Shown here one piece after another: positions 1 to 63,421 of a DNA stretch of 64,000 nt (position 1 is its first letter; every line of letters starts with the position of its first letter). Below the pieces are notes generated by a model. It was given only the letters and a program-made list of their open reading frames with translations, ran no database searches and was not told the origin of the DNA. Both the position numbers and the translations under genes were made by a program. This stretch comes from Bryoerythrophyllum caledonicum (lineage: Eukaryota > Streptophyta > Bryopsida > Pottiales > Pottiaceae), in contig OZ020521.1 of the NCBI GenBank assembly GCA_963971425.1, forward strand, positions 6,217,519 through 6,281,518, read 5' to 3'.

Positions 1-470
1 AAGGATTAGCACGTTCGTCATCTCTCTAACCCGTGGAAGGAGAACAATAACATAAAATCAAGTTGAGAACAGAATGACGAGGGAAGTCATGCGCAAGATC
101 ATGTACCCAACCTTCAAGCCACTGGGGCCCTTCAATAACATCCAAGGCAACGCCAGCAACAGTGCCACTGATGAGCACCTCCTTCAACGCACAATCGTCC
201 AGTAGGTGGCTGCTACTCATAATCACCACTACCGCACCTGTCCAGAACCACTGGTCATCAGAGACCATAATTGAATCCACACCTGAATTAATTAGCATAA
301 CCTAATCCAGTTTGCTTGATGAGGCTCACTAAGCACGAATCTGGTTTGATGTGCTGGAGAGTGTCCGCATTGATGAGCTGCAGTGTTGTTAGTAAGCGCA
401 CAATGCAGCGTGATTATGTCACTGGCAGCAAGCAGCTCCTTCAAGTTGTTCAATTTCTTGGCTCCGAGCA
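1..470 (-). pseudogene. AN: ANGUSTIFOLIA (CtBP/BARS-like) gene, partial, frameshifted
   Basis: Plant ANGUSTIFOLIA is a divergent D-2-hydroxyacid-dehydrogenase-fold (CtBP/BARS) protein that acts in cell shape and trafficking. Three exon-like blocks are visible on the minus strand. 470-330 encodes the segment around LLAASDIITLHCALTNNT, then LQHIKP in a shifted frame. 215-107 encodes HLLDDCALKEVLISG and EGPQWLEGW. 21-1 encodes MTNVLIL and runs off the window. AG/GT splice signals sit at each edge (AG before 470, GT after 330, AG before 215, GT after 107, AG before 21). Near 378-384 the frame breaks: relative to the family about two bases are missing between the TNNT and LINAD segments. The dehydrogenase start and the long C-terminal part lie outside or are absent. 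I read it as a pseudogene or captured fragment; an assembly error at the frameshift is the alternative. Confidence 0.72.
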
Positions 471-714
471 CTGAAAAAGCAAAATCAGGAAGGATCATAA
501 AAGATGAAACAGCTTGATGCAACCACATATGAAAAAAATACAAGCTTTATGCTGTGGAATGTAACCCTCTCCTAGAATTTGAGGGTAAAAGATACATTAT
601 TAGAATTCAGAAGGTTTGAGACACTACCCACACCATTCAACAGCTGCACTACCATGACATGCGATAGCTTCAACAACTCATCCATATGTTGATCTCTAAC
701 AATAAATTCCAGCA

Positions 715-1090
715 AACTCCAGTGGATTCACTGAAAGCCTTCAAAACAGTACTATATCTGGAGACACCCAGTCTATGCTATAATTTACAAAGACTTTTTG
801 CAGCTTCCAGTATGCATACGTCATCCTTACACATACATCACTTAAAGTAAAGAACTGTTTTAAGCTTAAGAATTGGAGATGATGATTTTTTCTACTGTTT
901 TTCATGAAGTCACGGAAGTACTCAAATTAAGCCTCAGGGACAAAATAACACCTCAATTTCGGTGGGCTTGAAGTCCTCCAAAAGAATTGATTGCAAGCAT
1001 GAAATTGCTGTCTGTTGGACCCCACACAGACAGGAGTCATCAGATAACCTAAGTACTGTTTTGAAGGCTTTCAGTGAATCCACTGGAGTT
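715..1090. repeat. 39-bp perfect inverted repeat (715-753 / 1052-1090)
   Basis: Bases 715-753 reappear exactly as reverse complement at 1052-1090. The 298-bp interior contains the last recognisable proteasome alpha-1 exon (1011-952) and AT-rich sequence with no ORF. The arms lie between the AN and proteasome fragments. Confidence 0.9.
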
Positions 1091-1238
1091 CTCAGCAAAT
1101 TAACAATTTCAAACCTTCAAAGCAGCTAGCACGGAGACTCACTTGAACGGTTTCCTCGTACGAGAGTTGCAGATTATTCTTGATCTTCTTTTCGAGGAAA
1201 TTCACTGCCTCTTGGTCCTTGGAACCAAAGCTGGTTGC
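952..1238 (-). pseudogene. PAA: 20S proteasome subunit alpha-1 (PAA), two C-terminal exons only
   Basis: The 20S proteasome alpha-1 subunit is part of the outer ring of the core particle. Exon 1238-1143 (32 codons) contains [15 protein letters not shown] and SYEETVQ. It is preceded by ...TAATGCAG and followed by GTGAGT. Exon 1011-952 (20 codons) contains TAISCLQSILLEDFKPTEIE, preceded by AG and followed by GTGTTA. These match the next-to-last region of plant alpha-1. The upstream three quarters of the protein and the final exon (the region after EIEVGVV) were not found on either side. The exons are clean and phase-compatible, so this is either a recent capture or a partial duplication rather than a long-decayed copy. 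No in-window evidence of expression. Confidence 0.75.
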
Positions 1239-1289
1239 CTGCATTAAGAGCATTCGTTCACCTCTATCAGCAGCTGAAAACGACACAAT

Positions 1290-2160
1290 TGGAAATCACA
1301 GACGGAGAAAAGATTGCAGCGGAATTCAGCAAGGTGTTTCTTTGGTCCTTTGTCATCTTAAGAATTGGTAGTTTACAGGAAGACAACTGGTTCATTGACG
1401 AAGTAGGCACAGTTCTGCCTGTAGCCGTAAACAGTGTCATGTTATTAATATTGACTACGCTGAAGATACTTAGCATAGAGTCTAGGAGTCACAATTCAGC
1501 TAGCACCAGATATAGGAAAATCTCTAGATAAAAGCTGTGGCAGGCAAGAAGGCTAACCGTATGTGCCAAAAATATCTCAAAAGAATTCCAGCACTGATTC
1601 ACGTCAACAATCTTGAGAACGGTCACTGCCTGATCATGCGAACAATCTTGAGGGCCGGTCACTGCCATATCACGAGCCGTTAGATCACCAAGAAAAAAAA
1701 ATCAATAGAATTCTAGCACTGATTCACGTGAATCAACACGTGAATTCCAGCACTGATTCCAACATGTGAATTCCAGCACTGATTCACTGATTCGTGAATC
1801 AACACTGATTCACAACACAACACTGATTCACGATACAAGTTTCAACACATAAACACATAAATGCTCATAATCTACACTCAGAAAACTCACAGACAAATCA
1901 TACATCACCAATCGCAACCAACGACACCCAAACCCTAACCTCAACCTCCAGAACTTCTCTGAAGCCGAAACCTCAAAAACCTCAACCTCAGACCTCCAGA
2001 ACGCAATCAACTCCGACCTTTCTTCTAGTGATTTTCAACCTCAAACCAACGATCAACCTAAACCAGCAATTCCACGAAACCAGCGATCAACCCTAAACCA
2101 GCAATCAACCTAAACCACGAAACCAGCGATCCCACGAAACGTCAAACTTCAAACTCGCAG
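1290..2160. other. Non-coding spacer with short local repeats
   Basis: No supported gene. At 1705-1830 a short module around AGCACTGATTCACGTGAATC recurs several times, and at 2030-2130 an ACCAGCGATCAACC-like module recurs. The ORFs here are short and not conserved in any way I recognise. Confidence 0.5.
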
Positions 2161-2183
2161 GCCTCTCGGCGCAGGCTTACCTC

Positions 2184-2880
2184 GTGATGGCGTGCGGCGA
2201 TGGATCTGTGGCTATGTGGTGGTGCGTCTGCGCTTCGGCGTTGGATCTGTGGCTATGTGGTGGTGCGCCTGCGCTTCCGCGTCGCACGCAAGAAGATGAA
2301 AAGGGATCCCTTCGTCTCCCTCCGTCGCGGTCTGCTCTCCCGTCCGCCGGTCACTGCGCTTCATCGGGAGAGGAAATTTCAGGACGGCGCTTGGAGGTCG
2401 GTCGTGTCGGCGCTGTTCACACCGGATTTGCGATATTTTCTAGGTTTTTGACCGTCCTCCGATCGCTGCGCATCTTAGGGACGTTTGGGTCGGCGCCTGA
2501 AGGTCGGTCGTGGGGGCGCTATTCACACAGGATTGTGACCTTTTTCTGGTTTTTTCGACGAGTATATCTCTTTTATATAAATACTAAACTAAAATTCGCA
2601 TTTTCTATAGTGAACACTAAGTACAAACACGTACACTAATTGCGAACTACACAATTAGTGTAGTGATAGAATACCGCCGTTCGCATTGTTCCCTCGTCTG
2701 TTCCCAAATTTGTTCCTTTTCTTTTCCTGCTTCACTGTTCGCATCGCTCCCTTCTCTGTTCTCATTATTCCCACTGTTCCCTCACCCGTTCATAACCGAC
2801 TTTTCCTGCTTTGCTGTTCGCATCGCTCCCTTCTCTGTTCTCATGATTCCCATCGTTCCTTCACATGTTCATAACCGACA
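2184..2880. repeat. Local tandem duplications (37-bp, ~120-bp and 79-bp units)
   Basis: Three successive tandem blocks. A unit of about 37 bp (CTGTGGCTATGTGGTGGTGC) is duplicated at 2205-2277. A unit beginning GGAGGTCGGTCGTG is repeated at about 2390 and 2500. A 79-bp unit begins at 2722 and again at 2801. The ORFs of 83-151 codons that cross them are consequences of the repeats. A short piece at 2605-2665 (ACACTAA ... TTAGTGTAG) resembles the subterminal repeats of the element at 9125-10058. Confidence 0.7.
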
Positions 2881-2959
2881 AGTTATGGCCCATTTTGGGT
2901 CCTCTTTCCATAATCTCAATAGCAACTGCTCATGTGGAGGGAGGAAATAATCCTACCCA

Positions 2960-3090
2960 ATTTAATTTTCGGTGATAGCCAATATATTTACAATATGAAT
3001 CCAAGTGATTTCATACTTTTTCGATGAAATGTAAATTCTTTGTGAATTTTCAAAGTGTATTGCCTTTTTTAGCCGGCGACCGCTAATAGG
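2960..3090 (+). repeat. Dispersed repeat shared with 27235-27330
   Basis: The segment containing GTGATAGCCAATA and CCAAGTGATTTCATA is found again near 27240 with about 80% identity by eye. No coding content. It is a decayed interspersed element present both here and inside the 5.7-kb insertion in the LINE. Confidence 0.55.
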
Positions 3091-3399
3091 TACCCCCAAC
3101 AGTGCCGACAAAAAGTACGGGATTCTTTTGAGTCGCTAACCTTCACTTGGAGCTAAATAGGTGGTAATGGGATGGAAGTCAATTGTGCACCCTAATTTTA
3201 TTGGTGTTGATTATGAGTTCTCATTGGATACAAAAGGTTACCTTATCCATTATCTTCCAAAATGCAACTAAGTTAAAACTGTAATATATGGGTTTTACAC
3301 AAATCTCATATTGGGAAGACCAAAGCAGCTAAAATTTTGATTTTAGCCTAAAATTTCTCATTTCAATTTATAATTTGTCCATTTGATTTGGTTCTTTGC

Positions 3400-4070
3400 C
3401 TATCAAATTTTTGCATTGTACAAGGTCTAAATCTTTTACCATTGTCTTAAGCATGATGTTATTTCCCAACACACCAATTTTTAGAGGTAGAAAAGGGGTG
3501 TAGCATATTCAAAACAAGTGTGCAAGGAGTGGAGGTTCAATGATTGCCATTTCACGTTTTATTTTTTTGTGAACTACGTATGTATTCAAATGATAATCCA
3601 AACGGTCAATAAGAAGGTTTTCACCACATATTGTTGTTGAAAAAATAAAAAGTGAAAAATTTGAAGATCTTTGGGTCTTATGTAGAAAAGATGAAGTTTT
3701 TTCCCCCGTTGCCCGACAATGTGTGAAAATGTTTGACTTGGAATAAAATGCCATTTTACACTAAAGACAAGATTTTTTATTGAAAATTTCCAAAAAAGGA
3801 AATATTATATATATGTGTGAAAAATCTCAATGTCAATAGAAACTTTTGTCAACAATTTTGGAGGTGCCCGATGTTCCCACTTTTGGCTTTAAGTGGTACT
3901 AACTTTCAAACCACAAATCCAAAAAATAAAATAAAAATACATCTACGAAGCTCTTATGAGAGGCAATCTAGAATAAAAAATTTAGAGAAAAAATATTTTT
4001 TTTCGAGTTTTAGGAACCTGCCCAAAATCAGAAATCCCCCCGAAGGAGACTCTGGTCCTTTAGTGTTATA
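3400..4070 (+). mobile_element. ~0.8-kb TIR family, copy 1 (left end decayed)
   Basis: Shares a long co-linear segment (GTGCAAGGAGTGGAGGTTCA and flanks, then the AATCCAAACGG...AAGAAGGTTTTCACC part) with copies at 45764-46440, 53820-54460, 55131-56075 and 59150-59775 and, inverted, 57909-58719. The right end near 4010-4065 has the family's terminal GGAGACTC...CCTTTAG. No transposase is encoded; the internal ORFs of 80-118 codons are not shared between copies. Confidence 0.7.
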
Positions 4071-4099
4071 TACATTTTGCACCTACTCTATAGGCTTGT

Positions 4100-6400
4100 A
4101 TATATCATACTCAAAAACTTCCTATAATGAACGCAAATCAAAGATACTGGGATTATACAAAAAAAAAAATTAATTTCTTGTTTTTGGAAGATTTATGATT
4201 TAACAATTGAGTTGCAATATTTAATCTTCTTCTTTTTGTGATAGCACATATATAAAAACCAAAAATATAATTCCAAAGTTTTTATATGTTCAAAACAATT
4301 AATATTATTTAAAAGACATGCATAGATTTTGGCCTAATGGCAATATCATGGATAAAATAGTGAGTTTAAATAAATATCTAAGTAGATTGGAATCTAGTGA
4401 TTGGATGAGGGGGCTTCAAATTAAAAATCTCATTTTGAAAACTATCAAATATCTTTCATGGATTGCGAATCCTAATATGTTGTGAGACGAAACTTCAATA
4501 ATGAGATTGTATTTTCAAATACATACTAGCAGTTGGCGCTTGCTTTGCAACGCATTAGTTCAACCATTTTAATGTAGTTTTTATATCACAAAATATATTA
4601 CAAAAAAAGGTAACAACAATCTACATAAAATATAAATATGTCTTTGAAACCTATGCACGAGTTTTAATAATGTAATAGAATAGAATAGAAAAAAATAAAT
4701 TAGGTTTTAGATTTTTTGCATTTTAACATGGAATTTCAAAAATGTTATGAACGTCAAATTTGTAATCAAGAGTTTCAAATTTATTTTGGATAATCACAAA
4801 TTGCAACACACGAATGCAAATTTCACACACCCACAAACTCAACTTTTAATTACAATCTCAATTTCACACATCCACAAACTCAATTTGCAATTACAATCTC
4901 AGAACTTGCAATCTCACCTCAAAACTTGTAATTTCAATCTCCACAACTCGAATATGCAATTTTGCAACTCCAACTTTGTATGCCAACCTCCAAGATCACA
5001 ACTCCATCTTCAGAACTTTTTTACTCCAAGTTTACAACTCATCATTTACAATTCAATCTTTAAGTGCTTAACTAAAAAAAAAAATTGAACGTCAAATTTG
5101 TAATCAAGAGCACAAATTGCAATACACACATGCAAATTTCTCACACCCAAAAACTCAAGCTAATGCTTTGCAACGCATGAGTCCAATTATTTTAATGTAT
5201 TTTTATATATTACAAACTATATTAAAAAAAAGTAACATGATTCACTACACGGTAGGCTGCGCAATTAACTGCGCGGTTGACTATATCGCTCCTATAGTTC
5301 ACTGCACGGTTGACTGCGCGATTGATCGTTGCGTGGTTCACTACGAGGATTATGATTTTAGTAGTATGATGCAATAAGTCATTGATTTTGAAATTGAAGG
5401 TTCTTCAATCATATCAAAGCTACCTCAAATGATCATTGTTTATTCCTAGGATATATCAAATTCCTACGGTTGGACAATAGGACTCCAAATTTATTTGAAA
5501 TTTAACTATAGATTTCTAAAAAGAAAAAATGTGCAATTGATCAAGAATTTATAATCATTGATTATCATTACCGTACCTAGTGGTCGCTTCAACACCTCTA
5601 AGTCAAAAGAATTATTTTCCTTTGTCCCAATGTTTTGGACATAGTGGATTTCACCTAAGTATTACATGGGTTTCACCTAAGTATTACATGGGTATCACCT
5701 ATGCATTATAGGGGTAGCACCTTAACATTACATGGATAATCACCTGGACAAAAAGTTGATACTTTCATCCATTTTATATGAATTATGTACAAAAGCAACC
5801 ACATTACATTGTTTTGGTCAAATTCAACAAATCATTTCCATTATTTGAATTATCTATATCATGAATTTTATTTTATTTCAACACATTTGATTGTACTATT
5901 GATAAATGAAAATATAAATAAAGTTAAACTTGTTGTATACTTCTTTTTAAAGGTCATCTTTTAAATCCAAAGAGTCATTAATAATTTCCATTTTGATAGT
6001 TGAATATTTTTTAAAAATTAATCATTGAATATCTAAAAATATAATTTTGAAAATACATTTGAATATTTAAAAAATATAATAGAAGCTTGATCACTAAGTA
6101 TAAATTCTATGGATTAAATTTACACATAGAATTGATAGTTATTTGCTTAAGATTTTGAAAATAAACTTAACACTGAATATCTTTGAATGAATGATATTAG
6201 CCTGATGAACCTCCAAGTATTTAATTTCTATCAATTAACTCTACCAATATTTGTAAATTTATATCAGATCATTATTTATCTCTATATATAACAATTTTCA
6301 CTATATACTTAATGCAGCCAAAACCTAGATGATGCCCTCATAGGGTCCCTTGCTAAGACAAGATATTACAATGGAGAACAATATTGATACAAAGAACATG
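4100..6400. other. AT-rich intergenic DNA with decayed direct repeats
   Basis: No gene supported. A direct repeat links 4527-4840 and 5086-5230 (GAACGTCAAATTTGTAATCA at 4748 and 5086; TTTGCAACGCAT at 4545 and 5166). At 4800-5000 an ACTCAA/CACAAACTC-rich simple-sequence stretch gives a spurious ORF. At 5240-5350 a degenerate GCGCGGTTGACT-like motif recurs about five times. Confidence 0.5.
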
Positions 6401-7740
6401 TTGATAGTTATTGCAGAATTTGATAGTTTTTTATTCTTTTAATTGTCTTAACCCCTAAACGTCCTTAGGGGGTCGAAACGCTGAAATACAGTCAAAAATC
6501 CCTCAAAATTAAATTCCATGTAGAGCTCAATGGGAGAAAAATATTCAAAAAGTAACCGTTAGATCCTCTTCAAACATAGCCAAATAATAAGTGAGCCAAT
6601 TCTTGTGTACTTTGAACATGATTTGGGCCTCCATCCACTCCAAAAAGTGCTACGTTTGGGGGGTGAAATTAATCGGGGACCCTATTTTTTGGAGTTTTTG
6701 AGAAAATACACCTTGATTGAAAATCCACTTCCAAAAATGGTCAACTACAGAAATGTGACTTTGTCGGTTTGGAAGATAATTCCAAAAACAGATATTTATT
6801 TGGAGGTTTCATGTGTTCACAATCCGCCTTGCAATACACATATGTCATATTTTCTCCTGCTATTTGGAGGCTGCCCTTCCAACTTTGGGTAGGCTATTTG
6901 ACAAAAAGAAAGAAACATGGGCACCTTCACTAAGGAAAAGACGAAATTTTTTTAGAGATTGGCATGTGCAAGGCCACGATCTTATGACAATCACCGTAAA
7001 TATAAGTAAAATCCCTATCTCCGTTGTGAAAAATCCCTATCTCCGTTGTGAAAAGTGTGAGTTATGATGGCAATCTCTGTGGTGTAGCCAAATATTCCCC
7101 CAATTCTTACACAAATATTGTAAGTGGTTTTTTAGACTTACAATAATTGCAAATATGAATGCAAAAAAATAACAGTAATTCTGAATGTTCTGATCTCACA
7201 AATGGAGAAGATCCAACAAGTGAAATTTTGAACAATTCTTCTAAATAAAGTTTGTTACAAGAACTTATAGTTGGAAGTCTGAAAATAGTAAAAAATTGAT
7301 CTATACCGTTGGGAGTGTCTAGAGGCAGAAGATGGTAATTTTGAGGTTTGAAGCTCCAAGACATTGAGGATTTTTCTGAGTTATGATCTCAAATCTGGTG
7401 CACATGTCAGGGTTGAAATTTGAATCAATATTTTTTTTGTTATAATCATCTTTGAGATCATATAGTTCAAATTACAAAAAACAAAAAAATATGATCCATG
7501 CTTCAATGAACACATAGTGGTAGAATATTGTAGTTTTGTAATTTCAAGCTTCTAAAAGCACAATGAATTCTATAATCTCAAAAATGATGCACATCCTATA
7601 GATGAAATTTACAACAATACTTTTAGATAGATTTAGATAGAAGATTCTGTGCTTGAAAGCTTAAAAATTGTAAATAGTCTGATTCATGCATCTATCCATA
7701 CATGGAGGTCAAAAATTGCACTTTACAAATCAATTATTCA
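6400..7740. other. Intergenic, no supported gene
   Basis: Contains an isolated TTAACCCCTAAACG end-like motif at 6448 resembling the TIRs seen at 35937. Otherwise AT-rich with short non-conserved ORFs. The tandem AAATCCCTATCTCCGTTGTG at 7010-7050 is a local 22-bp duplication. Confidence 0.4.
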
Positions 7741-7746
7741 TTTTCC

Positions 7747-8586
7747 CTATTGACTTTCACTATCTAGGTGATCAATATAATTTATCCAAGTGATAGGTGT
7801 TCCACTTGTTAGTTGATTTGATAGCCTTTCACAAATTGCCGATATGTTCACAAGAGCTAGGCCCAATTTGAAATTATTAGTTGATAGGGAATTGACATCG
7901 AACCGTAGCGTTCCGTGGCTGACATATTTGCTAAATACAAATATACCTGCTCCATTATTATTTTGAAGTTTCATGCAGTGTTGAAAGATTCCGAATTCGC
8001 CGCCTTGCGGATGTCCTTCTGTAAACCAGCATAAAAATGAATAATCCAAATCGTTTTTATCAATATGTGGCTTTATAAAAGAATTCTTTGACAAGTGCAA
8101 TTGGTGCACTTTTGTTGGATATGCTTTCAACCCAATTGCGATACAATCCATATGTTGAAATTGATGAGCAAAAAACTCTTTTACAGGAGCTCCAAGTAAA
8201 TTTAACGCCTTCCACATTGCCGTTGCAATAGAATTTCTTGTGCCCCTCAAGGAACGTTTTGTGTCTTCAGTCATGTTTATACGATCATACTGAACGATAT
8301 CTCTTTTTGACTTTTCTCCTACATGGACAACATAGCCGTGGCCTACAGACTTATAAACACCTCGTTTTGGGTCTTTTTGATTAGATTTTCCTACAAACGG
8401 AGCGGTCTGATAATATATATCTGCGGCCTCTAATGTTCTTTGATATTCAACATCGTTTTCCCATATTTTTGGGATATAAATAAATAAAACTTCTTTCAGT
8501 AATATATTTTTTGGATCCAATATTTTATTGTTGATTATAGTATTTCCATCCAGCAATAATACAGCAGTTGATGTTATTGGTTGCAA
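7747..8586 (-). CDS. Candidate 2-oxoglutarate/Fe(II) dioxygenase, TET/JBP-like core
   Basis: An uninterrupted 279-codon frame. Its C-terminal half has the layout of a double-stranded beta-helix dioxygenase: PHIDKND with H174 and D176, GGEFGIF at 195-201, and SHGTLRF with H224, i.e. an HxD...H metal triad. The spacing and the GGEF turn recall the TET/JBP family (oxidation of thymine or 5-methylcytosine in nucleic acid), which in fungi is often linked to transposons. The usual 2OG-binding arginine after the distal histidine is not evident; K240 stands about there. No ATG opens the frame: the first codon is TTG, directly preceded by ATAATCAG, which could be a splice acceptor, so this may be one exon of a larger gene. 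Upstream exons were not identified. Residues 1-150 match nothing I know. Substrate is inference; another DSBH oxygenase family is possible. Confidence 0.5.
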   Translation of the reverse strand: MQPITSTAVLLLDGNTIINNKILDPKNILLKEVLFIYIPKIWENDVEYQRTLEAADIYYQTAPFVGKSNQKDPKRGVYKSVGHGYVVHVGEKSKRDIVQYDRINMTEDTKRSLRGTRNSIATAMWKALNLLGAPVKEFFAHQFQHMDCIAIGLKAYPTKVHQLHLSKNSFIKPHIDKNDLDYSFLCWFTEGHPQGGEFGIFQHCMKLQNNNGAGIFVFSKYVSHGTLRFDVNSLSTNNFKLGLALVNISAICERLSNQLTSGTPITWINYIDHLDSESQ

Positions 8587-9124
8587 CTGATTATTTTCAT
8601 ATACACTTTCCCAACTTTTCTCAAACTTTTTGTTCTCCCAATGTGGCTCTTTTTCAGAAAATACTTATGTATAATATGTAACGCATGAATTTTGTGTGAA
8701 AGAATGCATATGTAAGGTAGTACCGTTTGCAATAAAGAGAAGAGTGATGGAACCAAACTTTTGCAAGTGCGCAAAGTTACACATCAACTTGCAATATGTT
8801 TGAATGACATTAAAAAACATTGCAATCATAACTTTTTGAAGGCACTCAAACTTATGTCCATAATGGCGACAATTGCATAATGTTGCGATCAAAGGATATG
8901 GATGCGCTATTACAGCCGACACCAAAAACTTATAAATTGACTCTATAGGAACTTCCAAAAATTCATAGAATCCTTCGAGGGAACTCTTGGGCCTTTAGGG
9001 TCAAAGATGATTTGAATTATAAAACACATAAATTAATAGTAGTAAGTGAATCAATATCACATGAGACAAGATCATCTAGCAAAGTCAACTCAAAGGAGTA
9101 AATATTGATTTATAACAAATGAGA
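8587..9124. other. Spacer upstream of the dioxygenase ORF, with one TIR-family end
   Basis: Overlapping short minus-strand ORFs (8574-8958) show no recognisable domain, though they could hold upstream exons of the dioxygenase-like gene. A terminal fragment of the 0.8-kb TIR family (GGGAACTCTTGGGCCTTTAG) lies at 8980-9000. Confidence 0.35.
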
Positions 9125-10058
9125 TGAAGTACACTAAAAGTTTCATTTAGTGTAGTGGACACTAAATACGAACCCATACACTAATTGTCAACTACGCAAT
9201 TAGTGTAGTGACAAAATAGTACACTAAATGTGAACTACTACACTATTTGTGAACTTTTGTAAAGATTGGAATATTAACTTTTTTACTCGTGCACATTTAG
9301 TGTATTGAAAGTAGAAGAGAATTGTGTGTACTAAAAGGTGAAGAAGAGTAAAACTAAAACTCACACAGAAAAAATTGGAAAAAACAACAATTGGGAAAAA
9401 ACAACAATTAGGAAAATCAACAATTTGGGAAAACAACAAATAGGAAAAAACTAAATTTTTGCGAAAACAACAATTAGGAAAAAACAATTAGGAAAAAACG
9501 ACATTTTTGCGAAAACAACAATTAGGAAAAAACAATTAGGAAAAAACAGCATTTTTGAAAAAAACAAGAACTAGGAAAAAACATCAATTCGGGGAAAAAA
9601 GACAACTTACCTTTTGCAAAGGTAAACTTTTGAAAAAAAAAGCTTTTCCAAATATAAACATTTGAAAAAGTAAAGATTTGAAAAAGTGAACTTTTGAAAA
9701 GAAATCTTGGAAAAAAGTAAAGTTTTGAAAAAGTAAGGTTTTGAAAAAGTAAGGTTTTGAAAAAGTAAGGTTTTGAAAAAGTAAATGTTTGAAAAAGTCA
9801 AATTTGAAAAAGTAAACTTTTTCAGAAGTAAAACTTGAAAAAGTAATCTCTTGAAAAAGTAAGTTTTAAACAAATTAAATTTCCATAAAGTGTACTCCGA
9901 TAAAGTAATCTTGGATAATGTAAATTTTGATCAAATAATCTTTTGAGAAAGTACACTTGTTTGCAATTAGTACACTATTTGTCAACTTGTTTGCAATTGG
10001 TGTACTACGGTAAGTACACTATTCGTGCCAATACAGTAAATGAAACTTTTAGTGTAGT
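9125..10058. mobile_element. Non-autonomous element with CACTA-like termini
   Basis: Left end CACTAAAAGTTTCATTTAGTG (about 9132) and right end AAATGAAACTTTTAGTGTAGTG (about 10037-10058) are inverted with respect to each other. Both flanks carry many short ACACTAA / TTAGTGTA motifs (9145-9310 and 9955-10020), as expected for subterminal repeats of CACTA/EnSpm elements. The interior (9360-9900) is low-complexity, built of AAAAAACAACAATTAGG-like and GAAAAAGTAAGGTTTT-like units. No transposase. The long minus-strand ORFs rich in F, L and K come from the simple sequence. Confidence 0.6.
9360..9900. repeat. A-rich minisatellite, ~16-22 bp units
   Basis: Two successive low-complexity arrays inside the CACTA-like element: AACAACAATTAGGAAAA-type units (9370-9600) and TTTTGAAAAAGTAAGG-type units (9650-9870; the copies near 9725-9780 are near identical). 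Confidence 0.75.
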
Positions 10059-10185
10059 GACTTCTTAAATCTTATATTTAGGTGATATGTAATGAATTTT
10101 CTTAAATCAATACCAAGGCACAATTCAATTTTGATACGATAAACAATCTTATAGAAAGGACATTTTGATTCAGTGGTAATCTCGA

Positions 10186-10436
10186 TGCTAATCTAAACCC
10201 TAATCCTAAATCCCAAACACAAAACTCTAAAACCCTGAACCCTAATCTTTAAATCATTAAACCTAAACAATAAACTATAAGACCTTAAACCCTAATAACT
10301 AAACCCTTAAACCTAAAACCCTAAACCCAAATCCATAAATCTAATTCTAGAATTGTCTAGTCCGAAACCCTAAACCCTATAATTTACACTTCATACCATG
10401 GACTTGCAATCCTAAACCTTAAACCCTAAACCCTAA
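10186..10436 (+). repeat. Degenerate interstitial telomere-like repeat (CCCTAAA)
   Basis: Roughly 20 copies of CCCTAAA or one-base variants (AACCCTAAACC, CCTTAAACC, CCCTAATAA) are spread across 250 bp. The heptamer is the plant-type telomere unit on its C-rich strand. The array is imperfect and embedded in ordinary sequence, so it is interstitial and not a chromosome end. Confidence 0.7.
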
Positions 10437-10439
10437 ATG

Positions 10440-10957
10440 TCAAAATGTAATTTCAAGCCTAAACCTAAATCTTTACTTTTATAATCTAGTCATAATCAAT
10501 ATCCTTAATATGGATATAAATGACCGTAATCAAATATCCATAACCCCAATTGATAACCTTAAATTGATACATAATTCTATACCTTAAATTTAAATTGATT
10601 CTTGCATATTTAAATTGATACCCATAACCCCAATCGATAACCTTAAACTGATCATGTAAATAGAAACTTCCAATACATCGAGATATGAGGAGAAACTTAT
10701 GTGCTTGTTATTTTTTTGGTCAAGTTTGAAAGATGCTTTATTTAGAATAGCTCCTCCCCACTAAACGTGATGTCATTCCCGCTCTTTTCTTAACGGCAAC
10801 TTGTTTGACGTGGTCAATACACCCCAACCTCTTTTCTCTCTCTCTCTCTCTCTCTATTTGCACCTTTCTGATATGGTAAGCCTTCGTGAATCTATATTGT
10901 CTCGAAGTATGCCTTGACATTTGAAAGACCTATTGCATTCGAAGTCAAATTTCTGTG
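10440..10957. other. Spacer with (CT)n microsatellite
   Basis: No gene supported. TCTCTCTC dinucleotide repeat at about 10831-10855. A short repeated AACCCCAATTGATAACCTTAAA motif occurs at 10541 and 10625. Confidence 0.5.
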
Positions 10958-12029
10958 CAAGAAGTGGATACATTATTCTAGGTCAACTTAGTTGTGTTTG
11001 GAATTTCTAGAGATGCCGAGGTATGTGGTCGTGAATGGTTGCTGCGGCCGTGAGAAAGAGTAGGGTTTTCTCTTCCTTCTTCATTCAAGACGTTTTGGTG
11101 CACGCAATCGGACCATTTGTAAGTGATTTCTGTCTAAACTTTATGGTGATTTACTTGGCATTTGATTTGCACATTTGATACTATCATTTTCAATATAATG
11201 AAATAGTTGTAGGAAGGAGGTGATACTTCGGTGTCAACACAATCACCTCCTTAGTACTGGTTTAGAGATTCATTTTATTATTTGTACGTCAGTATGACAC
11301 ATAAATTCTTGCAACTGTCAAAATGCGTAGTTTTTGTTGGTATGAGTGCTTCAGGTTTTGATTCAGTACTCTAACAAGAAGTGGATACATTATTCTAGGT
11401 CAACTTAGTTGTGTTTGGAATTTCTAGAGATGCCGAGGTGTGTGGTCGTGAATGGTTGCTGCGGCCGTGAGAAAGAGTAGGGTTTTCTCTTCCTTCTTCA
11501 TTCAAGACGTTTTGGTGCACGCAATCGGACCATTTGTAAGAGACTTCTGTCTAAACTTTATGGTGATTTACTTGGCATTTGATTTGCACATTTGATACTA
11601 TCATTTTCAATGTAATGAAAAAATTGTAGGAAGGAGGTGATACTTCGGCGTCAACATAATTGCCTCCTTAGTACTGATTTTGGGATTCATTTTATTATTT
11701 GAATGTCAGTATGACATATATGTTCTTGCTACTGTCAAAAGGCGTAGTTTTTGTTGGTATGAGTGCTTCAGGTTTTGATTCAGTACTCTAGCAAGAAGTG
11801 GATACATTATTCTAGGTCAAATTTAAAGGACATGCATAGATTTTGGCCTAATGAAAAAGTTGTAGGAATGAGGTGATACTTCGGCGTCAACACAATCGCC
11901 TCCGTAGTACAAGTTTAGGGCTTCATTTTATTATTTGTACGTCAGTATGACATATATGTTCTTGCAACAGTCAAAATGCGTAGTTTTTGTTGGTATGAGT
12001 GCTTCAGGTTTTGATTTAGTACTCTAGCT
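10958..12029. repeat. 417-bp tandem array, 2 full and 1 deleted copy
   Basis: CAAGAAGTGGATACATTATT occurs at 10958, 11375 and 11792, exactly 417 bp apart. Copies 1 and 2 are near identical by eye. Copy 3 loses an internal block after about 11822 and carries instead ACATGCATAGATTTTGGCC, a string also present at 4317. Each unit has the conserved AGGAAGGAGGTGATACTTCGG block. The array lies directly 5' of the transposase gene and ends at the palindrome array. Confidence 0.85.
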
Positions 12030-12036
12030 TAACACT

Positions 12037-12237
12037 GCACATTCAGCTCGACCCAAGCTGAATGTGCATTGCATATTCAGCTTGACCCGAGCTGAATGTG
12101 CACTACATATTCAGCTCGACCCGAGCTAAATGTGCAGTGCATATTCAGCTGGACTCGAGCTGAATATGCACAGCACATTTAGCTCGGGTCAAGCTGAATA
12201 TGCACTGTACATTCAGCTCGACTCGAGCTAAATGTGC
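12037..12237. repeat. Array of six imperfect palindromes, ~34-bp period
   Basis: Six consecutive units of the form GCACATTCAGCTCGA-CCGAGCTGAATGTGC, each an imperfect inverted repeat able to form a hairpin, start at about 12037, 12071, 12104 and so on. Three more copies lie on the other side of the transposase gene (15361-15390, 15480-15513, 15598-15625). Known transposase-binding arrays are often subterminal repeats of this kind; that role here is inference. Confidence 0.85.
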
Positions 12238-12371
12238 TTTGTTTTCACCTATTCGTGAAGATGAACAATTATGTTTTTTTTTGTTTGCTTTGATTGATGT
12301 GGGATGAACCTTGGAGTACTATTATACTACGACAATTATTTACACTTTCGCCTTAACTTTGCAGTGCCAAG

Positions 12372-15286
12372 ATGGACACTTCAAGTGGTGCCTCAATCGA
12401 CGATGATTTTGATTTGTCAAGTGACAACTCGTCTTTTCACAATCCTGTAGATGCTGATTTGATGGAATTCGAAGTTCTCCCAAGGCATTCTTGGGTTGGT
12501 AAGATAGTCGAAATGAAAAACCTGTCCGGTGTTACAATTGCCACTGGAATACTTCATAACCTTCACACCACGGCTATTTCTGGGATTGATGCTCCGTTAG
12601 GTGATACGCATGTTGCCATTCAGGTCTCGAGGACATTAGTTGAAGATGAAGCACCGGATGAATGGCGTTATTGTGTTAAGATTTGGCCTATTGGTCAAAT
12701 TTTCTATAATAGTATCAGTCTCTTGCATCACCAGCAGCGTGATACTTACAATTCTGTAATGGCAATGAGAACCCGGTCTCTTGGAGAGAGGACTCGCTCT
12801 TATGAAAGTTCATCTAGGATCCCTTCAACCATGGTTTCAACAAAATCATCAATTCTCCTCTCTGACGAATCTATCAACTCTGTTGCTGGAAAACGTTGTT
12901 GCTCCAGGAGTTGTGTTCAACGCTTCCCACGATTGAAGATTAAGGTATTGCGGATGAGGATGTATTTTGGAACCTCCGTTCAATTTCGAAGGCATATGAA
13001 GCTAGATGTTCACGGACAATTTCATGTGGACAATAACGGTAGAAATGTGGTGACCATTGAGGGCGTTGATGTGTGCGCAGCTGCCTGGCAGCACATCATG
13101 GGCGTCAGTGAAACCTCGTTCTATGAATATGCCAAGGATGCAGCGGCTGGTGTAGTCGCGCAGCCCCATGGTAATTCTGGGAAACGGAAACCTAGAAATC
13201 ACACAGTAGTCGCTACCGCAACATTACGTGTCATCCTTAATAGGAATGCTGACCACATGCCCCACAAGTCCCGCATCTTGCCTTCGGGTGAGACATCTGT
13301 GGCCAAAGTTCTTCCCGCAAATTTCAAGTAGAAAGATCAAATTCTTGCAATTGATGCCCATTTAGTTAATTGCGGGCTTTCCCAAATTTCCACTTCAGGG
13401 CTGAGTAAGATTAGGCGGGTCCATTTTTCCGATTACAATGCAAAACGACCTGGGGATAACTTTGCACGTTGTTCAACGTGTGATAAGTACCATTCCCATC
13501 GGAGATTGCAGCAGCCTGGAACAGAAGCTGCACTATTGTGGCAGCAAAGGTTGAATCTCCATTTGGATTGCAGCAGCCTGGAACAGAAGCTGCGCTATTG
13601 TGGCAGCAAAGGTTGAATCTCCATTTGGATTCAGCATGGGCTCATCGAGAGTTGTATTATTCCAACCCTTACCGCTCTCAAGAGTTGCCGGATGAATGTG
13701 TTACGATTATGCACGACAAGATGGATCACTCAAAGACTGCATCTCCTGTCCTCTCTCACAAGACGAAAGATTTGGATGGTCTGATGAAGTTGCCCATCTC
13801 TGTTACTGGAATGCTTGCACATGGTCATGGTGATGTTCCATATGCTCATTATGGCTTGGACATTTACCCACATGATGTCAACTATATAGTGGGATCTTTT
13901 GCTAGATTGTTGCGAGATTTAGAACCTTCGAAGACATCGTCCCAACAATTATTTCAGGGTTCGGGGAGAACTGCATTGTTTCGAGCTGTTTTGCAAGGTG
14001 CTTCAGATACTTGTGTCCCATTCCTCCGTGCCGCACCTGAGTCTCTAGTTATAGCAAAACCTTTGCCGCCTATTTTGCATGTGCAAATGGACAATGCGGT
14101 GAGTGACAACAAAAATAGATATGTGTTTTGCTTTTGGTCTCTTCTTGTTGCAAAGGGTATCTTCCGAGAGGTTTATGTTAATTTCATGCTTGTTGGCCAC
14201 ACACATGATGACATTGATGCATTATTCGGTCGATGGAGTATGGCTTTGAAGAAGGAGAGTTTCCCCACGATCCCTTTGCTCATGAGATCATTTATGGAGA
14301 ACGAAAGTGTGCCAACAATTCCCCACTTGATTGAAGAAGTCCCGGACTTCAAGTCCTTTATTAGTGAAGGTATTGCAGGTGGAGACGAAGCATTGCAGGG
14401 CCAGACAAAGGCTCACCAATTCAAATTCTTTGTTGACTCCAACGGATGTCCCATGATGAAATACAAGATTCTTTGTCATCAAGATGATTGGCTTCCAAGA
14501 GAAGGGGGTGGGATCAAATTGTGGAAGGAGGATTCAAATGGGAGGTCTTTATGGCCACGTGGAGAACCACCTTCATTGCAGCCACAGGCAATGCGGAATC
14601 TTCCTGAAGTGATTAAAGGTCTTTCTGGATTCATTTCATATTGGGAGCATCAAGCACGTGAGGATCGTACAGGTGAATATCGAAGGCGATATGAGCCTTT
14701 GAGCTACTATTGGCGGGCAGTTAGAGAGTCACTTAGTCAACCAATGGACTTGCCCACCTCTCTACAGGATGGTTTTTGGCCTTCTAGTTGTATTGGTCAG
14801 ACAATCGAGGACCAATTCACTAGTGTGGGCACTGTTCGTGAGGATCATGATGAAGATGACCACTTTGTTGGGCAGAGTCGAGATAGGCCAGCCCCTTCTT
14901 TTCGGATTAATCGAGACATTTACTCAGGCTATTTTGTTGCATTAAGACTGTGTGATGGAGATGAACGTCCTGTTTGGATTGAACAAGCTCTCTCGGACCC
15001 TAATTCGGATCTGGAAAGGCCTAATTCTATCAAAATACAGTACTTCCGCCCCACTTCGCGCGATGCAAATGTCCAAAGATGCTATGATGGATGGGCCTCT
15101 TCCAACGGTCTTCAATGGACAATTGATGACGAGCAACTTCCGCAATGGGAGGACACCGGATCTCTGTTGACTGCATGGAAGTCTAGAAGTAGGAGTGAAT
15201 TTCTTGTTGTGAAGATACCTAGAAATCAAGTTCAAATCATCCAAGATAGTTTGATCAGGGATACCGAGGCGTCTTCTTTGCAATGA
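12372..15286 (+). pseudogene. DUF7869-type transposon protein, split by a TAG and a 62-bp duplication
   Basis: The two large frames form one protein. The first (12372-13331) opens with ATG just after TTTGCAGTGCCAAG, and its end (VCAAAWQHIMGVSETSFYEY, then KPRNHTV...) is the segment usually found before DUF7869. It stops at TAG 13329-13331, but the same frame continues with a C-x2-C motif (ARCSTCDKYHSH). The second frame, 13538-15286, has DKMDHSKT (D60/D63), HVQMDNAVSDNKNRY (D185) and VGHTHDDIDALFGRWS (about 219-234), the RNase H-like acidic core of the DUF7869 domain. A 62-bp tandem duplication (period starts 13506 and 13568) lies between them and shifts the frame by exactly the observed amount. 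So this copy is broken by one nonsense codon and one duplication but otherwise well kept. Presumed role: mobilisation of the element. Confidence 0.8.
13506..13629 (+). repeat. 62-bp tandem duplication inside the transposase gene
   Basis: TTGCAGCAGCCTGGAACAGA begins at 13506 and at 13568. The two 62-bp copies differ at about one position (CTGCACTA versus CTGCGCTA). 62 is not a multiple of three, and subtracting it puts the downstream frame in register with the upstream one. Confidence 0.95.
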
Positions 15287-15726
15287 TTTTTTAGTACAAA
15301 GATGTTACTCTTATACTAGTATCCAAGAATGTGTGCATAAGATCGGAATTTGTTGGCGTGATTTTAGCTCGAATCGAGCTGAAAGTGTACACCCATTTCT
15401 TGTGGAGATTAATATATTTCAAAGTTTTGATATTTTATTATTTGCTATGCTGAATGGTTTATCGCATAGGAATTGTTTGGGCACATTCAGCTCGACTCGA
15501 GCTGATAGTGTGTTTCGATTTGAGATATGCATTTTCGTACCTTGACATTTGATCTTTTGTTTTTGAAATATATTTGGAGTTGTAAGTGTTGCTTGCTTTC
15601 AGCTTAACTGAAGCTAAAAATGTACTTTAATTTCTTTCAAGCCTAATTTTACATTGAAAATAATTCCGCACCTCCCATTTTAGTGGACACCTAACTCGAA
15701 AGATAGTATTAAAAGGTTACTATGCA
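15287..15726. other. 3' flank of the DUF7869 element with palindromes
   Basis: Contains three spaced palindromes of the 12037-12237 type: TTAGCTCGAATCGAGCTGAAA (15364), GCACATTCAGCTCGACTCGA (15480) and TTCAGCTTAACTGAAGC (15598). No gene. The exact right end of the element was not found. Confidence 0.7.
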
Positions 15727-17948
15727 AATCACTCAACATTTGCATATTTAGGTTTGCTTAAGCTTTTCATATTATTTTGGGAGGCTCCTAATCTCCCAAT
15801 ATAATGAATATGGTGTTGATTTGATTGCTGCAGTGGTGTCTTGGCCAACATGGGGGATTTTCCTATCTCCCACAATCCACATTTTGATTTTTGGGAGCCA
15901 TTCCTTGTCGAAGTACTTCCAGTATACATCAACGGCTGGCAAGAGAGCCTTAGCTTCGCCGTAGACATGCTGCACCCACTCTAACAAATTCCACACCTTA
16001 TCGCCGGGAGCTCTCGTCGAAGGGTCTTGGAAGTCACTTGGTGTCTCCGATATGTACATAAGTGAGCCCACAATTTGCAAGGCTCCGGCCCTCGTCTCCA
16101 TGTCTTTCAACTTAGCACATGCATTCTTGTGCCACGCTCGACAAACATCATAACATGCCAGAGACATAGAAATAGATGTGAGTGCGGCCAAACCTCCCTC
16201 CGATAACCCGACAAGCCGATAAGTACAACTCGCTGAAGTCCCGTCACTCGACAACGTAAGAATGCTAAATCGCTTACCGAAGAGAGTTGATCTCATTATC
16301 GGCGTCGTCAAGTACAAAGGCAGTGGGTCTCCAGTCCGGCCTTATCTGCACCAACTTCTGCTTTAGAGCGCGCATCCAAGGCACGAGATCTGTTTGTTTG
16401 GATTTCGCAGTGATCACAAAAGCCACTGGAACCCCGTTTCTCCACTCGTCGAATACCATCATCGTGAAGAGCGGATACTCGACACGCAAGCAAGAAATTA
16501 ATTGGTAGGGGAGTGAGTGCTCCTAAATTCTAAACAGACCCTAACTGGACCACGGTATAGGTATGAGTACCTTTTTGTTGTTCGTTGCGAATGTCCCGTC
16601 TATAGCATTAATGCTTTTGTGACTGTATTTCAGCATCATGTGCGTCTGAATGGGATTTGAATCCCAATTACGAAGGGTATGTTATCGGCATTCAGCACTC
16701 CGTCAACCTTGCTGCCCGGGTCTTGGTAGTAAAAACCGTACCTCGGTTTTCTCTTACCCACATTCTCACACTCTCTCAACGTCGTTGTCGTATTTCTTGT
16801 ATAGTTCCTGCGCACAGACTCCGCATATGTTGCAGATGTCCTCCATGCTAAGGAAACAATCTCGAGAAGGCGTAAGAGTGCCCTCATTGCATGCCTTTAG
16901 TACCAGCTTCTGGTGCTTTTGTATTATAGTTGCCATCGGAACTTGGTCCTCAAATTGCCTGAGAACCCAAAGCCTTACTTCCTCCGACATGTACTTCCGA
17001 AAGCGGAGCTTTCCCCTCTGTACATTGTCCTTATCGTGGACGATGAGGCCCTGTGTGTCAACATGTTCCAAGCAAAAGTACCCTATCTCGACGATATATG
17101 GAAGAAAATAATACCTCTTTACGTAGAATCGACATTGGCAGCCCACCTTCATAGATCCCCCTTCCTTTGCATCGGTGGCACGAGGGCCTTTCTGGCCATT
17201 TCCGGAAGTAAGTTGTTTCCCTTTGTGATGTTATTTGAATGCGTTGGTGTCATTTTGGGCGTGATTGCTTGGATCTTGTCGCTGTTGTCTTCGGGACCGT
17301 ATTGACAACGCCATCTCCAATCGGCTATGACCATTAGAGATACGTGCAGTACTGAAGAGATATTACGGCACAGCCAATAATATGATCGGAAGTACATATC
17401 GTGATATCAGAGGTCAAGATTCACTTACCGCTGGTACTCGATGTGGCAGTTCCACTGATAGTGCGTCTTCTCGCTGACGTTTGTGGGGTTGTTCTTGTGG
17501 CGGACAAAGATAGTCTCTACATCCTTTCGGCCAGACTGCTCACCCTCCACGAAATCGAAGATCCTATTCCAGGGAATGTAGGCAATAAGCTTGGACTGCT
17601 TCCTCTTCGATGATTGCGGATCCTCTACGAACCTCGTATCATTCTCGACCTCTATGTTCCACCCAAGACATTTCCATGTCAAAATTCATGGAGGAGGGTT
17701 CTGTAATGAATCGCGCATCGAAGAACCTTGTCACCGTGCTTCTTCAGGTAATCTGCATGCGGGCCTTCCCGGAACGCGGCATCAAGGTCCTCCACCCCCT
17801 TCTCACACACACCGGCCGATTTCTTTCTCCCATAACGCCTCCATTTCCTCCCTACTGCCCCGTTATCGGCAATCGTTGGTGGCGCCGTTTCGCCAAAATT
17901 CCCATTCGGGTTGTCCTGTGTGGGGAGATTGAGATCGAGGAACTCCAT
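15727..17948 (-). pseudogene. MULE (Mutator-like) transposase, multiply frameshifted
   Basis: Successive frames on the minus strand give one MULE protein. The N-terminal part is at 17948-17425. A FAR1/WRKY-like DNA-binding segment starts KVGCQCRFYVKRYYF at 17146 and contains LEHVDTQG. The catalytic part at 16489-16274 reads FTMMVFDEWRNGVPVAF, the first Asp of the DDE motif, and then VLDDADNEI. At 16317-15772 lie CRAWHKNACAKL, YFDKEWLPKIKMW and GQDTTAAIKSTPYSL, which in MULEs precede the SWIM finger. At least four frame changes or stops separate these blocks; some may be introns, but stops occur within blocks as well. The C-terminal SWIM motif was not seen. The element ends were not located. 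Confidence 0.75.
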
Positions 17949-61571: not shown

Positions 61572-63421
61572 TTAGGCTTCAGCGCCTTCTTTGATACCCG
61601 TGAGACCGTCAGGCCTCGAATTCGCCACAGTTTGAGTGGGGCTCTTGTTGGCCTTCTTGCCACGCTCCGATTTGGAATTCTCTGCGAATTTCAGGCTGGC
61701 GGCGTGCAAGCCCTGGTCCTGCTCGCCCTCGCTGTACTCAGACGCGTAGTAATCCTCCTCCGACATCTTGGAGGCCGGGAACAGCATGCCACCCCACTGC
61801 GGGAACCACACGAACAGTACGAGCGCCGTCATGGCGATGATCATGTAGCCCATATTGGTGATCCCGACCTCAGTGTGGTAGGTCGCCTGCGTGAAGAAGA
61901 TGGTCTGCGTGAGCACCGCACCAACGTTGCCGCCCGCGCCAGTGAACCCTGAGATGACGCCCAGGGAGCGGCGCGAGACGAACGGTATGATCCCGAATGT
62001 GGCCCCGCACGCAGCCTGCACAAAGAATGAGAACACGATCATGACTGCAATCGAGGGGCCAAGCGCCGCGGTCTTGCCCAGAATGATGCAGAGGACCCCT
62101 CCGAACGTCTGGATGATCCAAAGGTTCCAGAGACGCCCGCGCATGCCCCACCGCGTAGCCACCAGGTCGGACAAAATGCCGCCCAGCGGGCGCGACACGA
62201 TGTTCATGAAGCCGAACGTGGACGCGATGATGCCTGCGGTTGAGAGGCTCAGCCCGAAGCGGTCATAGAAGTACTCCGCGATAATGTTATCGACTGTGAG
62301 CTCCACTCCGAAGCAGTACCCGTACGTAATCATGAAAATCCACGTCCGGTAGTTCGTCACCGCATTCACGAACACCTTCTTGAAGCTGTCCTTCGCCTTC
62401 ACCCCCTGCGACTGCAGGTCGGCGAAGTTGCCGTCCGGAAGATCCTGGCCTATGAGCAATACCAGGATTCCGATCACGGTGTGCATCACCCCCGGCAGGA
62501 AGAAAGCCAGTCGCCATGCTGTGAAGTTCGTCGCATTGAAACTGCAAAGCACAAGGAGAACTCGTTAACTATCGCGTTGGCTAGAATCATGAGATTCGAT
62601 GATCAATACACCGTAATTGTATAGCACCGAGTAGTGGTCTTGACAACTACATACCTGTCTTTAATTAGAGCGTAAACCAAGGGCATAATGAGCTGCGTCG
62701 CGCCACCCCCAAGGTTACCCCAACCGGCAGCAATGCCGTTGGCAGTGCCGACGATCTTACTGTTGAACATGGAGCTCATCCAGTACTGGCACGAGACGAA
62801 CGTCGCAAGCGAGAATCCAATGAAGAACCGCACCGCCATGAACCCGGCAGCAGTCTCCACCGACGCCATTGCGTACACCGCGGGCGAAATGATCATCACC
62901 AGGAACGCGCACCCGTACCGCGGGCCAATGAGGTCGCACACGGATCCCATCAGAAGCCGAGACAAAATCGAACCTGAAAAATTCAAGCAAACGTGATCAG
63001 AACCAGAGTTCATCGTCTAGGTCATCGAACTAGTTGCATCGGACTCTCCGAACTTACCAGAGACGGAAGCGATGGCAGCGTGGCCGATGTCCTCCTTGGT
63101 GAGGTTGAGATTGTCCCTAATCACAGGGATGAGCGGGGGCGCGGCGAAGGTGGACAGGAAGCACGTGAAGAAGGAGAACCACGAGAGATGGAACGTGCGC
63201 ATGTGCGGCGCGGCGAAGCTGTGAATGCGCATCGTCGTCGCCTTGTGCTCGGAGTCCACCGGCAACGCAAACTTGGCTGTGTCCGGCTCGCTGTTCTTCT
63301 TCGCCCTCTGCAGCATCGAGAACGCGTACACCGGCTCCTTCCCCGTCACGCCGTGCATCGACGACCCCGGGTCACCCTTCGCATTCTTGTCTCCCACCCC
63401 AGATATCGACTGGTCCGCCAT
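61572..63421 (-). CDS. NRT2: High-affinity nitrate transporter NRT2, 3 exons
   Basis: Plasma-membrane nitrate/proton symporter of the NNP branch of the major facilitator superfamily. Exons 63421-63058, 62973-62655 and 62541-61572 join in frame with GT-AG introns of 84 and 113 bp to 550 residues, close to the family's usual 500-550. Seen: a hydrophilic N-terminus, then [21 protein letters not shown] (first membrane helix), the MFS loop motif [13 protein letters not shown], the two nitrate signature motifs [13 protein letters not shown] and [41 protein letters not shown], and the NRT2-specific tail [15 protein letters not shown], where phosphorylatable S/T are frequent. In many plants NRT2 works with NAR2/NRT3; no such gene is in the window. 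Start chosen at ATG 63421; an in-frame TTG nine bases upstream is not needed. Markedly GC-richer than the surrounding repeats. No frameshift or missing motif. Confidence 0.95.

Follow-up and report, generated by a model that had tools for sequence, protein, structure and literature searches.

Enzymes of the TET type are already known as cargo of DNA transposons. The passages of Kojima 2025 (PMC12730594) drawn on here describe 11 lineages of fungal DNA transposons that carry TET/JBP enzymes, with PU, AG and PE among the types of TET-bearing elements. A second point of comparison is CMD1, a 5-methylcytosine-modifying TET homologue of Chlamydomonas reinhardtii (PDB 7cy4-7cy8; Nat Commun 2021, PMC7854593). 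According to the sections of that paper used here, H345, D347 and H397 of CMD1 bind iron, D350 contacts N4 of 5mC, W358 and T399 contact vitamin C, and Trp358 takes the position that arginine has in TETs and stands in the way of 2-oxoglutarate. Its section 11 describes the Asp/Asn of HxDxxD as the base-reading residue in TET-type enzymes, and Arg410 of CMD1 as not used for the co-substrate (PMC7854593).

We analysed a 64,000-nucleotide stretch of Bryoerythrophyllum caledonicum DNA (hereafter, the window) and the genome that contains it (437 Mb, 894 contigs). The reading we consider probable is that a TET/CMD1-like anti-silencing enzyme is cargo of piggyBac transposons in this genome, and that the copy in the window is a near-neutral passenger fragment. 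The system is like the fungal TET-bearing transposons in its likely TET/JBP-type cargo, in the several kinds of element involved and in gene transfer between unrelated element kinds; it differs in that the hosts there are fungi and that the fungal PE type has HxE where HxD is found here (PMC12730594, passages as above). The words piggyBac and moss are absent from the main text of that paper, its abstract names no piggyBac, and no plant carrier is named in 12 of its 16 places with the word 'plant' (PMC12730594). No plant TET/JBP case was recognised in the titles and abstract starts of the literature searched, and earlier descriptions may exist in subscription papers. Carriage of a TET-type enzyme by a DNA transposon is thus familiar in kind, and this variant differs in its carrier, its host lineage and an active site of Lys/CMD1-like type.

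The frame at the centre of this study lies on the minus strand and spans 305 codons from stop to stop (8664 to 7747). It is the longest open frame in 4001-11000 and is beyond chance, as 300 dinucleotide shuffles of that region gave a mean of 102 codons and a maximum of 165. Its G+C by codon position (0.438/0.324/0.288) shows a coding-like bias. The frame and its motifs are as follows.

7747..8664, minus strand: 305-codon open frame with its TAG stop; it represents the 3' end portion of a TET/CMD1-like dioxygenase gene and corresponds roughly to residues 208-512 of the source protein (515 aa).
8050..8067, minus strand: HIDKND, with putative iron ligands H200 and D202 and with D205, which corresponds to the 5mC-reading Asp350 in CMD1 (role of Asp350 from PMC7854593, sections as above).
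7993..8004, minus strand: GGEF, residues 221-224, aligned with GGEF of CMD1.
7909..7917, minus strand: HGT, with the putative distal iron ligand His250 and Thr252 (His397 and Thr399 of CMD1).
7867..7869, minus strand: Lys266, conserved in the family, at the presumed place of the TET 2-oxoglutarate Arg (the CMD1 alignment stops short of Lys266).
7372..8656, minus strand: captured fragment, the stretch common with the piggyBac-borne source gene, 93.7% identical over 1,308 columns.

An earlier, sequence-only reading had described a stop-free frame of 279 codons with TET-like motifs. The open frame is present, and the 279 codons belong to it as only the last part of the 305. The residues named there (H174, D176, GGEF at 195, H224 and K240) are all exact and correspond to H200, D202, G221, H250 and K266 in the 305-codon numbering, so that HxD, GGEF and the distal His of a TET-like enzyme are all in place. 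Its proposal of upstream exons at 8587-8960 found no support, because coding bias is lacking there and the region is outside the stretch common with the source gene, which ends at about 8656; beyond one TAA at 8665-8667, the in-frame stretch 8668-8994 has codon-position G+C of 0.367/0.339/0.367, with no such bias. Elsewhere in the window, CCCTAAA runs resembling plant telomeres occur around 10194-10437, and a frame at 61572-62564 encodes an MFS, NRT2-like transporter; we take both to be plant features. A MITE-like stretch beside the frame (9130-10056) has 29-bp inverted ends (93%) and TACACTAAA motifs, and a related piece lies at 2585-2673.

The search for paralogues that the same reading had called for returned at least 96 matching places in the genome, several of which are fragments of a single copy. 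With the window itself excluded, their identity reaches 95% at full length and 99% over a part, and falls to about 30%. Window-type copies comprise the window and 10 further loci, all starting at the same junction (VFSEKEPHW or one change from it). At the 10 source-type loci the gene is longer, and the whole 515 aa is open in four of them (L014, L017, L018 and L022); the distal His is replaced by Asp in L018. Among the distant copies, L029 encodes 531 aa (41% identical to L018), L030 527 aa (33%) and L034, counted from its Met, 454 aa (32%). The HxDxxD, the distal His and the Lys are kept in relatives at 33-41% identity. A DUF4218 ORF upstream of L030 raised the idea that a CACTA element carries the L030 family; this was rejected as a neighbourhood due to chance, since none of the 25 candidates scored (32 matches) lies beside another L030-type place.

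The source gene, which encodes the 515-aa protein with an N-terminal HCHKxCxxC module, resides in piggyBac elements. Homology between source-type copies ends at ...TTAGTTAGGGGTTAA in 8 of the 10 loci, and the piggyBac right end ...GGGGTTAA is followed by differing flanks in 8 of 10; in L014 and L022 the right-end probe matched nothing. All four upstream stretches that were inspected contain the left end TTAACCCCTAAACGACC, with a different flank in each. At L017, an 841-codon frame upstream of the dioxygenase gene and on the same strand matches DDE_Tnp_1_7 (PF13843) at 4.7e-77, and the whole element runs from C14:9635891 to C14:9644449, 8,559 bp including both TTAA. The TTAA ends, the CCC starts and the transposase identify the source element as a piggyBac. 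It is like other piggyBac (DDE_Tnp_1_7) transposons in transposase domain, TTAA ends and terminal CCC, and unlike the known ones it holds a second gene, the dioxygenase, downstream on the same strand, as well as another ORF of 356 aa that matches no Pfam model. Copies of the cargo-bearing family are still alike, with 8.56 kb in the copy measured.

Transposase matches occur at no fewer than 108 places genome-wide (108 of the 359 candidates scored). For a count of proximity, 43 of the 96 dioxygenase places (source-type and distant, with window-type places left out) were set against 51 of the 108 piggyBac places. A piggyBac match lies upstream on the same strand, 2.4-6.7 kb from start to start, at nine of the 43 dioxygenase places and on the opposite strand at two; the other 32 have no piggyBac neighbour among those 51 of 108. 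One of the nine same-strand pairs is distant (the dioxygenase has 43% identity to its query and the transposase 42%), which argues that the link between piggyBac and dioxygenase is probably not one recent event. At C15:2972938-2977673, a dioxygenase 84% identical lies 3.8 kb behind a transposase that is only 43% identical, and the cargo may have moved between piggyBac lineages there.

The identity of the protein was addressed with profiles built from the copies. In a search of profile A2 against all solved structures, CMD1 was the best match (E 0.17), followed by likely chance matches at 0.2, 0.26 and 3.1. Profile A3, for which 28 open pieces were selected by hand from the window and 22 loci (L012, L015, L019-L021 and L023-L028 left out), returned CMD1 as its sole match (E 0.043). 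With the core alone (profile A4), CMD1 reached E 0.004 and the next match 1.2, a flattering E since the core region was cut out after CMD1 had appeared in the A2 and A3 results. The profile search proposed in the sequence-only reading, which set TET/JBP families against prolyl hydroxylases, thus has the TET homologue CMD1 as best match and not a prolyl hydroxylase.

Conservation across A3, counted over the rows with any residue at the position, is high for the iron triad (H and D 23/23, distal H 21/22) and for the Asp three residues after the triad Asp (23/23). It extends to W (22/23), T (21/22), Ser399 (23/23) and His397 (19/23), and CHxxCxxC is present in all nine rows with residues in the N-terminal part. 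The Arg with which TET-type enzymes bind the C5-carboxyl of 2-oxoglutarate is absent from its presumed place; Lys stands there in 20 of the 21 A3 rows that extend over it, so the Lys observed earlier in the window copy is a trait of the family and not a quirk of one sequence. When the register of CMD1 and L014 is counted by hand on the printed alignment, H345, D347, H397 and D350 of CMD1 fall on H407, D409, H457 and D412 of L014. In the same register, W358 and T399 fall on the near-invariant W420 and T459, T337 on S399, and S335 on His397. The match covers only about 70 residues, at E 0.004-0.17. Unlike CMD1, the family has Lys where the Arg410 equivalent is expected, a different N-terminal module and a place in transposon cargo; equivalents of CMD1 R244, H249, R418 and Ser414 were not located in it.

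Libraries of protein families and predicted folds were also searched. No Pfam model reached its cut-off for the dioxygenase, and Tet_JBP, presumably part of the Pfam set searched, did not match; no NCBIfam model matched either, and the best PHROGs matches (E 0.02 and 0.066) have no known function. The single-sequence structure model has a pLDDT of 29.9 with the core below 50, and the alignment-based AlphaFold model (28 rows) a mean of 42.5, again with the core below 50 and confident only at about residues 13-109. With this poor core, Foldseek gave nothing with E at or below 0.001. Residues 13-109 of the L014 protein are predicted to form beta strands with HCHKxCxxC (block pLDDT 61-84, no Pfam model at cut-off), and we regard this part as a candidate DNA-binding zinc module. 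Since no Pfam model reached cut-off and the predicted core fold is unusable, kinship with TET/JBP is likely and not proven. We describe the enzyme as TET/CMD1-like and not as canonical TET, because Lys replaces Arg and CMD1 likewise makes no use of Arg410 for its co-substrate. In sum, the source enzyme likely combines an N-terminal Cys/His (zinc-type) module with a divergent Fe(II) dioxygenase core of TET/JBP/CMD1 type, and it probably modifies DNA bases. A giant-virus, phage, plasmid or prokaryote origin was considered and rejected: no phage relatives were found (no match in the first search and only E >= 2 in another) and no plasmid relatives (only E >= 4), and scans of viral contigs and prokaryote genome contigs with short exact peptide patterns or tblastn, by which distant relatives may be missed, returned none.

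The most serious competitor, which we hold to be unlikely, is that the transposons carry a 2-oxoglutarate dioxygenase from a different clade (AlkB-like or prolyl-hydroxylase-like), whose substrates would be protein, RNA or damaged bases and whose likeness to CMD1 would be confined to the common Fe site. In its favour are the Lys at the co-substrate position, a residue known there from prolyl hydroxylases, and the missing Tet_JBP match in Pfam. Foldseek with the poor model listed HIF prolyl hydroxylase 2 three times, at E 1.1-1.7, which is not significant, and its list as a whole is given no weight. Against these stand the three profiles, in all of which CMD1 is the best solved-structure match and in two of which it is the only one below E 1, while neither a prolyl hydroxylase nor an AlkB occurs in the three lists. 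The Asp of HxDxxD, conserved in 23 of 23 rows, is moreover the base-reading residue of TET-type enzymes in the sections of PMC7854593 used here.

The window copy itself does not lie in a piggyBac but in a second, larger transposon, whose features in and beside the window are listed below.

1..15817, no strand: right 15.8 kb of a 23,906-bp host transposon, whose left end, at base 1431 of locus L062, precedes the window by 8,089 bp.
15793..15817, minus strand: right terminal inverted repeat AACACCATATTCATTATATTGGGAG (read inward), its first 24 bases an exact match to the left end.
15818..15821, no strand: GATT, right copy of the 4-bp target-site duplication, the left copy being in L062.
13487..15286, plus strand: DUF7869 (PF25273) ORF, 599 aa, E 3.3e-41, candidate transposase of the host element.
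12357..13331, plus strand: 324-codon ORF directly before the DUF7869 ORF, with a weak winged-helix match (E 0.11, below cut-off).
12037..12236, no strand: palindromic repeats (GCACATTCAGCTCGA...) at 34-bp spacing, with related ones in the left part of the element and in two small derivatives.

All 12 right ends that were fetched, the window included, stop at one base (...AATATGGTGTT) and continue into differing flanks. Across the genome, the reverse complement of the right end has 416 forward and 432 reverse occurrences, and its reversed control has none. The matching end at base 1431 of L062, with GATT on both flanks, sets the span of the window element at 23,906 bp. The flanking terminal repeats for which the sequence-only reading had suggested a search are thus present as exact 24-bp ends between GATT duplications, and position 3394, a candidate left end, is ruled out by the same search. 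Its description of a frame surrounded by decayed repeats is apt for the repeats around the frame inside the element, and does not extend to the transposon, which has exact ends and a target-site duplication. The association with mobile elements that it inferred is borne out; the frame lies inside the 24-kb transposon, and longer open versions are found in piggyBac elements.

A 4-bp duplication flanks all 10 elements with both ends read, that of the window and nine others. Four of these are large (L063/L064 with TTTA, L065/L066 with GTAG, L072/L073 with ATTT and L074/L047 with CTGT), and five are small derivatives (L067-L071, 163 or 237 bp long) that share the 24-bp ends and are flanked by TGAG, AAAC, ATGG, GAAG and CTTT. 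The printed small derivatives L067 and L069 contain the palindromic ATTCAGCTCGA...-type repeat of window 12037-12236. The right part of the window element is common to at least 39 other places (40 of 10,968 candidates scored), and the 93-98% identity between these right parts suggests that the 24-kb transposon was recently active. Pfam lists DUF7869 without an assigned function, and no paper with both this term and transposon was found in the literature searched. Left of the window, the element also contains a 540-codon ORF (L062:5867-7486, minus strand) with a motif resembling GDLVF.AFGGS and weak matches to PF01555 N6_N4_Mtase (E 0.1) and DUF2239 (0.0034), both below cut-off; it is possibly a second base-modifying gene. 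Another ORF (L062:3044-3733, minus strand) has an NLI-interacting-factor phosphatase domain (PF03031, E 6.8e-15) and is perhaps a captured host gene.

In a blastn comparison of L018 with window region 2001-14000, the only common stretch is 7372-8656 (about 1.3 kb), which indicates that the 24-kb element acquired part of the piggyBac cargo gene. The captured piece is without about 207 N-terminal residues and without a Met before residue 131. We infer the direction of capture, from piggyBac to the 24-kb element, from the longer frame in the source copies. Estimates of dN/dS differ between the two settings. For the full source gene, dN/dS is below 1 in all six pairs (0.33, 0.34, 0.36, 0.38, 0.38 and, in a very close pair, 0.53). 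For window-type copies it ranges from 0.35 to 1.64 (mean 0.80, 10 pairs of five copies). In both sets the pairs are non-independent with small counts per pair, and copies with stops were left out.

There is a slim chance that the 24-kb transposon puts the captured 305-codon fragment to use, as a truncated enzyme or a dominant binding domain. All 305 codons are open in 5 of the 11 window-type copies (the window, L009, L010, L011 and L016), and HxDxxD, the distal His and the Lys are kept in all five. The remaining six are stopped, deleted or cut short, the mean dN/dS of 0.80 includes two pairs above 1, and neither the N-terminal module nor a Met before residue 131 is available to such a product. 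The window copy is most likely an inert passenger spread by the 24-kb transposon. Slimmer still is the chance of a domesticated host gene family that transposons copied repeatedly, for which the distant-family loci L029, L030 and L034 without a piggyBac shown beside them and the fully open frames of L029 and L030 may be cited, against the many places with stops scattered over contigs and the piggyBac ends that bound the main family. For the window frame, no sign was seen of the domestication that the sequence-only reading had allowed for.

If the source enzyme is TET/CMD1-like cargo as we favour, a methylated cytosine would be flipped into its pocket, where the Asp of HxDxxD would read the base as Asp350 of CMD1 does. 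The enzyme would then oxidise or otherwise modify the methyl group on element DNA, and the modification may weaken methylation-based silencing, as proposed for fungal TET-carrying transposons. A piece of the gene (about 1.3 kb), taken up by the 24-kb transposon with its 4-bp target duplications and DUF7869 protein, gave rise to the window copy. The 2-oxoglutarate-blocking Trp of CMD1 and two further vitamin-C contacts align with conserved residues of the family, which raises a speculative extension, doubtful by our own estimate and less probable than the other-clade dioxygenase discussed above: piggyBac elements of a land plant would carry a CMD1-type enzyme that uses ascorbate and not 2-oxoglutarate, and would place a hypermodified cytosine, for instance 5gmC, on their own DNA, or erase 5mC from it, to escape silencing. 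Arguing against ascorbate, Ser335 falls on His (19/23), Arg244, His249 and Ser414 were not located, and the conserved Lys could serve 2-oxoglutarate.

In angiosperms, DNA is demethylated through excision, and TET enzymes are not known from them. The present findings suggest that the transposons described here carry a tool against DNA methylation. If so, the uptake of base-modifying enzymes by transposons would extend beyond fungi, here to a multi-copy, selected, TET/CMD1-like gene carried by piggyBac in a plant-like genome. Such plants would then have a source of oxidised or hypermodified cytosine, and the anti-silencing hypothesis would be directly testable in a species with many copies.
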